DNA from: Methanoregula sp. PtaB.Bin085
GTDB lineage: Archaea > Halobacteriota > Methanomicrobia > Methanomicrobiales > Methanospirillaceae
NCBI RefSeq assembly: GCF_002067035.1
Contig: NZ_MVQB01000025.1
Location: 1 to 37,266 of the forward strand
DNA length: 37,266 nucleotides
Direction: 5' to 3'
Shown here: one piece after another, positions 33,308 through 37,266 of the stretch
Position numbering within the stretch: position 1 is the stretch's first letter
How the letters are laid out: each line of letters starts with the position of its first letter
The notes under the pieces: generated by a model
Told to the model about the DNA's origin: nothing
The model's input: the letters and a program-made list of their open reading frames with translations, nothing else
Database searches by the model: none
Made by a program: the position numbers and the translations under genes

Positions 33308-33330
33308 GGTAATTATCAAAGATCAGCCCC
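33308..33330 (+). repeat. Left terminal inverted repeat of IS element
   Basis: This pairs with 34180-34202 at 18 of 23 positions. It contains the transposase stop codon (33316-33318). Confidence 0.85.
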
Positions 33331-34158
33331 TAAAATGATATGAATCAAGTCGGCAAATAACACTTTTTCTCTGTTGTTGTATCTCCATTCCATTTCCTTG
33401 ATGTAATAGAGGAACATCTCCTTCGAGATTCCATGATGTTTCATCAGCCGTTCTTTAGCAAACGACCAGAATCCTTCGATGCCATTGATGTAGACTTTTC
33501 CCTGCTTGAATTTGTATTGATGATCAATACTGAGGTGACGATATCCACAGAACATGAGAGAATCATACCCGCACCATTTGTCGGTATAAACAATGGATCC
33601 TCTTCTAACCTTTTTAACTGTTTCATTCAACAGGGATTCAGCTTTTACATTCGACAGAATACTGACTGAAACCTTCCCGCCCCGTTCCAGGATCCCGAAT
33701 ACAATCGTTTTGTGACCGGCACCCCGGCCTCGCTTACCTTTTCGTCTTCCACCGAAGTATGATTCATCGGCCTCGATCTCACCTTTCAGGAGAATATCCT
33801 CTCGCGCGAGATGAGAGGCAATTGATCTTCGAAAGAGTTCAAATGCCTTCAGGGTTGTCGGATAACTGATGTCGACTTGACTGCATGCTTTCCTGGCACT
33901 GACTTCCAGTTCGAATAATTTTATGAGAAGAAGTAAGGAGACGATGGGTATTTTCTGCCCGGATATCGGTGTGTTGGTAAATGGGGAATAATCTCTCCGA
34001 CACCGTTTACAACGAAGTCGGGTTTGGTTCATCAGGTAATAGTCCGGACTACCACACGATGGACATTGAATCCCTTTTATCTTCTGAACTTCTCGTAAGA
34101 GGTAATCAAATGCCCGTTGTTCTGTTTTACAGATTTTTATTAGTTCAGGTAAATCCAT
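33316..34158 (-). CDS. IS1595-family (ISXO2-like) transposase
   Basis: About 280 residues from ATG 34158, preferred to GTG 34167 because AAGGTG lies six bases before it. An N-terminal zinc ribbon (CPSCGSPDYY...CKRCRRDYSP) is followed by an ISXO2-like DDE domain. The first acidic residue is in EADESYFGGRRKG, the second in VYTDKWCGY, and the last catalytic block is YINGIEGFWSFAKERLMKHH, which fits the N/E variant seen in this family. No frameshift or internal stop is present, so it should be functional. The protein ends inside the left inverted repeat. AT-rich codon use unlike its neighbours supports arrival by transposition. Confidence 0.95.
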   Translation of the reverse strand: MDLPELIKICKTEQRAFDYLLREVQKIKGIQCPSCGSPDYYLMNQTRLRCKRCRRDYSPFTNTPISGQKIPIVSLLLLIKLFELEVSARKACSQVDISYPTTLKAFELFRRSIASHLAREDILLKGEIEADESYFGGRRKGKRGRGAGHKTIVFGILERGGKVSVSILSNVKAESLLNETVKKVRRGSIVYTDKWCGYDSLMFCGYRHLSIDHQYKFKQGKVYINGIEGFWSFAKERLMKHHGISKEMFLYYIKEMEWRYNNREKVLFADLIHIILGADL

Positions 34159-34179
34159 CTGCCCCACCTTTTATTTGTG

Positions 34180-34239: not shown

Positions 34240-35184
34240 ATGTTGCATGCAGCACCTGCCGGCGGGGACGGATCCGGAGCATCCCTTGCCGAAAAGCAGC
34301 GGACCGTCTTTATCAGCCTCATCGTTGACTTCGTCCTCTGGATCCCGGATGTCATGGCCGCGGTCCTCTCGATGTCCATCGTGCTCTTTGCCGATGCTGT
34401 GAAATGTCTCAACGAGATCCTGGCAACGTTCTTCTCGTACCTTACCCTCCGCAAGATGGCAAAGGGCGGGGGCGGCACCTACGATTACGGAATGGGAAAG
34501 TTCGAGACCATGACCTCCGTGATTACCGGTGGCGTCATGTTTGTCTCTCTTCTCCTGGTCTTCTTTGTTGCCATGTACCGGATTGTACACCCGGAGTCAA
34601 TCGTGCACGAGGGGGCATATCTTGGCATGGTCCTCATGGTCATCGGCGTCTGCATGAACACATTTCTCTGGAAGAAGAATTACCGCGTATCTCTCAGGGA
34701 GCCCTCGCCCATCATGGACTCCCAGTGGCGGCTCTTCCGCACCAAGGCCATATCGGATTTCTCGGTTCTGCTCTCGCTCATCTTCTCGCTCGCCCTGTCA
34801 GAGTATGCCTGGTCGTATTATATCGATCCTGTCGCGTCCTTCTTCATCGCCGGCGTCCTCTTCCTCTCCGGCTGGCGTGTGATCACCGCGTCCGTTCCGG
34901 ACCTGCTGGACAGGACCCTGGATGAGGAACTCCAGATGGTGATCGTCCAGCACCTTGCCGTCTTCTTCAACGAATACGCAGCGCTCCACGGTGTCCGTTC
35001 CCGCCGATCCGGCAGCAACATCTATATCGAGATCTTCCTTGAGTTTGACAGCGACAGGAAAATGGGAGACGTACAGGCAACCATAAACCGGATCAAGGCG
35101 GCACTCGAAACGCAGATCCCGAAGAGCACGGTCAGTATCGTACCGACAACTGTGGATATGAGCCGGAAGGAAGACGGGGCGTGA
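34240..35184 (+). CDS. Cation diffusion facilitator-like transporter with altered metal site
   Basis: A 314-residue protein with about six membrane helices (residues ~20-210) and a cytoplasmic C-terminal domain (~215-305) like the CDF dimerisation domain. Fold markers are the GKFE motif after TM2 (YDYGMGKFE, usually Y.FGHGKxE) and the DP in TM6 (YIDPVAS). The transport-site motifs differ from the usual HxxxD pairs: TM2 has K55-x-x-x-E59 and TM5 has K169-x-x-x-D173. It may therefore carry another ion, couple differently, or not transport a divalent metal at all. No ribosome-binding site precedes ATG 34240, so the mRNA may be leaderless. The IS element ends about 30 bases upstream, where a TATA box would be expected. 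Confidence 0.85.
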   Translation: MLHAAPAGGDGSGASLAEKQRTVFISLIVDFVLWIPDVMAAVLSMSIVLFADAVKCLNEILATFFSYLTLRKMAKGGGGTYDYGMGKFETMTSVITGGVMFVSLLLVFFVAMYRIVHPESIVHEGAYLGMVLMVIGVCMNTFLWKKNYRVSLREPSPIMDSQWRLFRTKAISDFSVLLSLIFSLALSEYAWSYYIDPVASFFIAGVLFLSGWRVITASVPDLLDRTLDEELQMVIVQHLAVFFNEYAALHGVRSRRSGSNIYIEIFLEFDSDRKMGDVQATINRIKAALETQIPKSTVSIVPTTVDMSRKEDGA

Positions 35185-36005: not shown

Positions 36006-37265
36006 TCACACCCGCGGCTGCTGCTGGGTGGCGCAGTGGAACGTCCCGCAGCCCTCGACCAGAGCCCGGGCATCGATCCCGGCAATCGTGCGGTCCGGGA
36101 AGAGATCCTGGATGATGCGGAGGGCTTCTGCATCGTGAGGGTCGTTGAAGACGGGGACGACAACGACCGTGTTCCCGATGTAGAAGTTGGTGTAACTCGC
36201 CGGGTACCGCTGTTCGCTGTCGGCCACCTTTGCAGGCATCGGGAGCTTTATCACGGTCAGGGGCCTGCCGTCCTGGTCCGACGACTGGCGCAGGATTTCG
36301 TAGTTTTCGTGCAGGGCAGCGTAATTCTCGTCACGAATATCCGTCTCGTACGCGCAGACGACCGTGGATGGATTGACAAACCGTGCAATGTCATCGACGT
36401 GCCCGTCCGTGTCGTCTCCAGCGATGCCGTCGTTGAGCCAGATGACCTTCTCGACACCGAGATATTCCTTCAGCAGCTCCTCAATCCGGTCGGCCGAGAG
36501 GGACGGGTTGCGGTTGGGATTGAGCAGGCATGCCCGGGTTGTAAGTACGGTCCCCCTCCCGTTGACATCCACCGATCCCCCCTCGAGCACGATGCCCGGT
36601 TCGAACATCGGGAGGCAGAGGCGCCGGTTCATGGTATGGGGCATCTTCCCGTCGGCAAGCTGGTTCTCGTACTTGTTTCCCCAGGCATTGAAGTTCCAGC
36701 GGACCATGGCGATCCTTCGGAGAGCCCGGTTGACCACGAAGGTCGGCCCGTAGTCGCGGATCCAGACGTCCGAGTACTCGCTCGTGTGCAGGACAATCCT
36801 GGTCATATCGGCTCCCATCTCGCGGAGCCGCGCCCGGACCCGCCGGTGGATCACGGCAGTCGGGACGAAGACTTCGACACGCTCGGATGCGTGGACTGCC
36901 ATAATGAACGCAAAACAGGCATTTTCCACGTCAGCCAGGCGGGGGAACGTAAGTTCGTTGTGGGGCCATGAGATCCAGACGGCATCGTGGGGCTCCCATT
37001 CCGCGGGCATGTGGAATCCGCGGTTTCGCGGCGTGTCGCCCGGCCGGATGGCCGGGAAGACCCCGGACTCGCCGGGGAACGGGGCAACGAGCCGGCCGTA
37101 GGTATCCGGCCTGCGGTTCCGGAAGAACCCCCACGATTCCCGGACATTATTGTTCATTGAGAGGTCAGCGGTGGCAAGCAGGATCTCCTCACTGCCGGAT
37201 GCCCGGGCAAGTACCTTGCCGAAAGCGTCGCACACAAAGGATCCGCCAAAGAACGAGCAGTCCCC
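36006..37265 (-). CDS. N-carbamoylputrescine amidase (C-terminal end) fused to agmatine deiminase; 5' part outside window
   Basis: The frame is open to the window edge. The first ~60 visible residues match the C-terminus of nitrilase-type N-carbamoylputrescine amidase: FFGGSFVCDAFGKVLA, then EILLATADL and WGFFRNRRPDTYG. After a linker of about 20 residues the chain continues in the same frame as a full agmatine deiminase, from TPRNRGFHMPAEWEPHDAVW. Its motifs are VWIRDYGPTFVV, VLEGGSVDVNG, DDTDGHVDDIARF and the catalytic Cys in GCGTFHCATQQQP. Together the two activities turn agmatine into N-carbamoylputrescine and then putrescine. An internal ATG at 37157 falls inside the nitrilase-like end, so a separate deiminase gene starting there is less likely. 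A radical SAM gene follows on the same strand. Confidence 0.88.
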   Translation of the reverse strand, partial: GDCSFFGGSFVCDAFGKVLARASGSEEILLATADLSMNNNVRESWGFFRNRRPDTYGRLVAPFPGESGVFPAIRPGDTPRNRGFHMPAEWEPHDAVWISWPHNELTFPRLADVENACFAFIMAVHASERVEVFVPTAVIHRRVRARLREMGADMTRIVLHTSEYSDVWIRDYGPTFVVNRALRRIAMVRWNFNAWGNKYENQLADGKMPHTMNRRLCLPMFEPGIVLEGGSVDVNGRGTVLTTRACLLNPNRNPSLSADRIEELLKEYLGVEKVIWLNDGIAGDDTDGHVDDIARFVNPSTVVCAYETDIRDENYAALHENYEILRQSSDQDGRPLTVIKLPMPAKVADSEQRYPASYTNFYIGNTVVVVPVFNDPHDAEALRIIQDLFPDRTIAGIDARALVEGCGTFHCATQQQPRV

Positions 37266-37266
37266 C

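Follow-up and report, generated by a model that had tools for sequence, protein, structure and literature searches.

We found that the gene running off the edge of the analysed window, a 37,266-nucleotide stretch of Methanoregula sp. PtaB.Bin085, is the back end of a genuine 640-residue two-enzyme protein, a result far beyond chance. This protein is very probably a bifunctional AguB-AguA enzyme which turns agmatine into putrescine, with both activities and the substrate inferred.

The edge gene and the contig join

The window comprises the entire contig C25; the genome to which it belongs spans 2.9 Mb and is 98% complete. The minus-strand frame at the window edge holds 419 codons with zero stops up to that edge. 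The first-pass annotation had read this frame as the C-terminus of an N-carbamoylputrescine amidase passing into a complete agmatine deiminase with its catalytic Cys, and profile searches agree on both parts. Residues 3-58 of the frame align with positions 222-278 of the 279-position NCBIfam aguB model (E 1e-10), and residues 85-417 with PAD_porph (E 5e-121, 404 bits), the latter domain occupying the last ~340 residues of the ORF and including Cys632. With the window protein as query, a search of this genome showed that residues 1-24 recur, 100% identical, at the extreme end of contig C20, where a CN_hydrolase domain is also present, and the final 75 bases of C20 are exactly the first 75 of the reverse complement of the window. 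Such a shared end looks like the typical leftover of a k-mer assembler at a broken graph edge. Joining C20 to the window yields one uninterrupted 640-aa ORF that starts with ATG and stops at 36006. It encodes a full nitrilase-type AguB and a full agmatine deiminase AguA, with a linker of ~20 residues between them. Thus the complete nitrilase domain anticipated beyond position 37266 lies in the same frame, with its Glu45-Lys118-Cys154 triad, and neither a stop nor a frameshift interrupts the gene upstream; the single long product predicted earlier is borne out as a single ORF, albeit of 640 aa rather than ~700.

The join is supported by the upstream neighbours on C20, a Trm5-like (tRNA-methyltransferase-like) ORF and an acetyltransferase-like ORF (names given by eye from the sequences), since they match the gene order of a close relative, G017; the Trm5-like neighbour is also present beside the fused homologue L034. 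The gene is cut by the window end, as would be expected if assembly had linked two genes artificially. However, the fusion junction sits within the window, away from the contig end, and dozens of genomes show the same junction inside single contigs, which rules out an assembly artefact and leaves it a negligible probability. Furthermore, a single stop-free frame of at least 640 codons spans the region in 27 genomes of the same genus.

Table 1. Features of the fusion gene in the window and on contig C20.
Feature	Location	Strand	Basis
3' part of aguB-aguA fusion gene, residues 222-640 + stop	36006..37265	-	ORF, join
5' part of fusion gene, residues 1-245 (overlapping)	C20:17918-18654	+	join to window
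75-base exact overlap with C20 end	37192..37266	.	sequence identity
AguB domain C-terminal part, residues 222-281, includes Trp266 tail	37086..37265	-	aguB profile, MtCPA alignment (PMC4812014)
Inter-domain linker, about residues 282-302	37023..37085	-	no stop; predicted from L034 homologue model
Complete agmatine deiminase domain (pentein, PAD_porph), residues 303-640	36009..37022	-	Pfam, PDB matches, conserved residues
Catalytic Cys632 codon TGC (= MtAIH Cys366)	36033..36035	-	alignment; PMC6447857

Elsewhere in the window, a 283-aa ORF (33316-34167, minus strand) reads like an IS1595/ISXO2-type transposase and adjoins a cation-efflux-like gene at 34240-35184.

The two domains and their probable substrate

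Amidase residues were mapped onto MtCPA (numbering from PMC4812014) and deiminase residues onto MtAIH (numbering from PMC6447857). In the CN_hydrolase fold of the N-terminal domain, the triad residues Glu45, Lys118, and Cys154, together with Glu129, Gln157, and Trp158, are invariant among 65 fused and 58 split sequences. Likewise invariant is Trp266 of the swapped tail, corresponding to MtCPA Trp277, which lines the active site or its entrance in the partner subunit (PMC4812014). Among PDB sequences, the matches of the front half are plant N-carbamoylputrescine amidohydrolase (5h8i) and a carbon-nitrogen hydrolase of H. pylori (6mg6), and a Foldseek comparison of the L034 homologue model with 5h8i gave a TMt of 0.87. 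Like both of these proteins, the fusion protein keeps Glu-Lys-Cys and the equivalents of Glu132, Gln161, Trp162, and Trp277; unlike it, they have no extra C-terminal domain. It also differs in lacking the amine-binding Glu187 of MtCPA, which is reported to hold the amine of the substrate (PMC4812014); this specificity residue is not conserved, and Pro183 stands at the aligned position. The loop around this position differs, length included, in all relatives examined, Bacteroidota among them. Considering that the NCPAH of B. thetaiotaomicron has been studied by genetics and biochemistry as a putrescine-making enzyme (PMC10135574), the Bacteroidota-like type of this loop may by analogy be functional.

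In the deiminase domain, Asp387, Asp392, Asp506, His510, Asp512, and Cys632 are essentially invariant: Asp392, Asp506, His510, and Asp512 are found throughout both the 65 fused and the 58 split sequences, and Cys632 is gapped in one split sequence only. The agmatine contacts of the plant deiminase (Asp89, Asp94, Asp220, His224, and Asp226) are all retained, and Asp89 and Asp220, which contact the agmatine amine in MtAIH, correspond to Asp387 and Asp506 of the fusion protein. The best structural matches of the back half are the agmatine deiminases 1xkn, 6nic, 3h7c, and 2jer. The domain shares the pentein fold, Cys-His-Asp, and the substrate-binding Asp with agmatine deiminases/iminohydrolases (1xkn, 6nib, and 2jer), which, in contrast, are stand-alone monomers, dimers, or tetramers (PMC6447857).

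In the proposed pathway, pyruvoyl arginine decarboxylase (PvlArgDC), which is present in the genome, would supply agmatine; the C-terminal pentein domain would convert it to N-carbamoylputrescine and ammonia, and the N-terminal nitrilase domain would release putrescine, ammonia, and CO2. It is rather improbable that fold and chemistry are the same and the substrate is another one, such as aminopropylagmatine or a different guanidino amine. The loss of MtCPA Glu187 would fit such a substrate, as would profile scores under the NCBIfam equivalog cut-offs, both for the amidase (241 vs 410 bits for TIGR03381, nonetheless its best-scoring nitrilase equivalog) and for the deiminase (295.5 vs 381.8 bits for TIGR03380). 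The split Bacteroidota proteins also score under these cut-offs, at 319 bits for AguB and 271-278 bits for AguA. Aminopropylagmatine does exist in other archaea (PMC12979288), but searches of this genome found no gene of the SpeD or spermidine synthase families for making it, and the plant agmatine contacts are retained in full.

The distribution of agmatinase also speaks against another substrate. The genome search found no agmatinase family gene, and in a set of 43 high-quality genomes from the order, the fusion alone occurs in 24, an agmatinase-family gene alone in 11, and both in 8, with no genome lacking both, so that every relative without the fusion carries an agmatinase-family gene. 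This complementarity (Fisher p 1.3e-5, uncorrected for kinship among these related genomes) provides good support for agmatine as a substrate of the fusion.

The fusion is probably not the sole putrescine route of the genome, since a decarboxylase search found an ornithine-decarboxylase-like gene. This gene encodes a decarboxylase of the alanine-racemase fold, with lysine/ornithine decarboxylases as its nearest structural matches, and directly follows a saccharopine-dehydrogenase-fold, homospermidine-synthase-like gene (L153:1-2568). This arrangement is a probable second route, which weakens the case for a physiological need for the fusion, and the organism probably has two putrescine sources. 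The genome also contains two deoxyhypusine-synthase-family genes. Across the same 43 genomes, the decarboxylase is found in 27 and SpeD in 15, never together, and one genome has neither. This mutual exclusion fits a report that the SpeD homologues found in Methanomicrobiales, e.g. Methanospirillum, decarboxylate ornithine (PMC10407285). For the agmatidine of their tRNA-Ile, most archaea have to produce agmatine (PMC8503589, PMC12979288). With agmatine obligatory for this purpose, the fusion may use agmatine that is made anyway, and may thus be an outlet linking the agmatine level to putrescine.

The linker and the number of products

The fused homologue L034, which shares 75% identity with the part of the protein encoded in the window, was modelled as a monomer, whereas amidases of this family are known as domain-swapped dimers and octamers (PMC4812014). 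The model has a mean pLDDT of 91 and a pTM of 0.60, with a single break at residues 282-292 (pLDDT < 50), and Foldseek searches with it recover both parent families. It therefore predicts both domains confidently, joined by a disordered linker, with their mutual placement uncertain. Measured between aligned ends, linker length varies from 7 to 39 residues among the sequences.

Linker disorder, as predicted, would also suit a cell in which AguA is made separately, in addition or mainly, by internal initiation or linker proteolysis, leaving two enzymes in the cell; 40 of the 61 fused relatives have a start codon in frame close to the junction. However, junction starts bearing a ribosome-binding-like motif are rare, occurring in 4 of 61 fused genes as against 17 of 58 split ones, or in 1 and 14, respectively, when the start is ATG. 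In the linker of the window gene we found no stop, no in-frame ATG ahead of the deiminase domain, and no such motif; its first in-frame ATG lies inside that domain (MPAEWE), where the motif is also absent. A separate AguA is thus very improbable, and judging from these signals one uncleaved product is likely.

The first-pass annotation held that the fusion would keep the intermediate near the two active sites, a claim not upheld by the low-confidence linker and the pTM, or by the nested genus in which the genes have apparently separated again. True substrate channelling as the reason for the fusion is consistent with the two enzymes being consecutive and with retention of the fusion across two archaeal groups, and Trp266, in the amidase tail just ahead of the linker, corresponds to an MtCPA residue that lines the active-site entrance of the partner (PMC4812014). 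Nevertheless, a flexible linker, its variable length, and the re-splitting in one genus argue against it, and we consider channelling unlikely. Less likely still is a combined version, in which the swapped tail positions each deiminase by the entrance of the partner amidase and, in the re-split genus, the complex is preserved by non-covalent contacts or translational coupling. For the bifunctional enzyme, the simplest gain from fusion would be fixed 1:1 production and co-assembly of both activities. Because known homologues swap their amidase tails between subunits, the tether may by analogy leave near the active site of the partner subunit, and it is possible, as a hypothesis, that the amidase mouth lies near the tethered deiminase.

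Distribution, history, and significance

We surveyed 393 genomes of the phylum; strong matches came from 62, and 55 contained a fused ORF, so the same architecture does occur in other archaea, as the first-pass annotation had proposed to check. All 55 belong to the order of the window or to family f22, identified by its named loci as the Methanothrix family, and the named loci with the fusion are those of Methanoregula, Methanoculleus, Methanolinea, and Methanothrix. Outside these groups (in Acidobacteria, Bacteroidota, Chloroflexota, and DPANN, among others), the two genes are separate and in most cases neighbours, with aguB lying upstream. Among L047-L113, a large proportion of the split pairs share a frame, which is likely a selection effect of the search, where a long in-frame match scores higher. 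A single-protein search of viral contigs found no relative. In a Methanoculleus-like genome (G200), a short ORF (L151:8820-9092) containing pieces of the aguB and aguA ends lies ~1.6 kb downstream of an intact fusion and looks like a deleted duplicate.

The domain order had been described as reversed. This is true relative to the pathway, but it is no oddity, and it needs no special explanation because aguB-aguA is the usual operon order. In an ancestor of the Methanomicrobiales/Methanothrix gene lineage, a lost stop would have joined the neighbouring aguB and aguA into one gene. On trees of both domains jointly and of each domain alone, fused sequences cluster, with some split ones among them. 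Six split pairs lie deep among the fused sequences: L052, L068, and four from genus g16 (L123, L124, L125, and L126), the sampled members of a genus in the window's own family. In g16, a TGA at the former linker terminates aguB in 4/4 genomes, the downstream gene is in the same frame in 3/4, and a purine-rich stretch lies beside the stop, with a start a few bases further. Several branches support the nesting of g16 (support 87-98). A constraint placing all fused sequences in one clade was rejected (AU p 0.0036), which supports either re-splitting or a second fusion; a basal row, L050 (JAKATK010000007.1), also contributes to this test, which therefore does not single out g16. The simplest reading of the sequences is one early fusion followed by at least one re-splitting; g16 and the other nested split pairs would be probable re-fissions, and for L050 a second fusion is possible.

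The aguBA operons of Pseudomonas aeruginosa (from a title cited in PMC10135574), Bacteroidota, Acidobacteria, and others encode the same enzymes with aguB first and adjacent, but as two genes with a stop and a new start between them. A fused aguA-aguB gene in a Ca. Diapherotrites archaeon (DPANN) was mentioned in one sentence in 2023 (PMC10407285). It is clustered with speDA and speY, whereas no such cluster was seen around the fusions of methanogens among the listed loci. A literature search, with most subscription journals outside its reach, turned up no publication about the methanogen fusion, and the AguB-AguA pair is absent from a paper on fusion families in archaea.

In summary, the AguB-AguA protein is a real enzyme fusion of an ordinary kind, widespread in two methanogen groups. 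It clarifies the polyamine metabolism of methanogens in that the step from agmatine to putrescine is always covered in the order, by the fusion or by an agmatinase-family enzyme, although an ornithine-decarboxylase-type gene is nearly always present as well. The nested re-splitting provides a natural test of what the fusion is worth.
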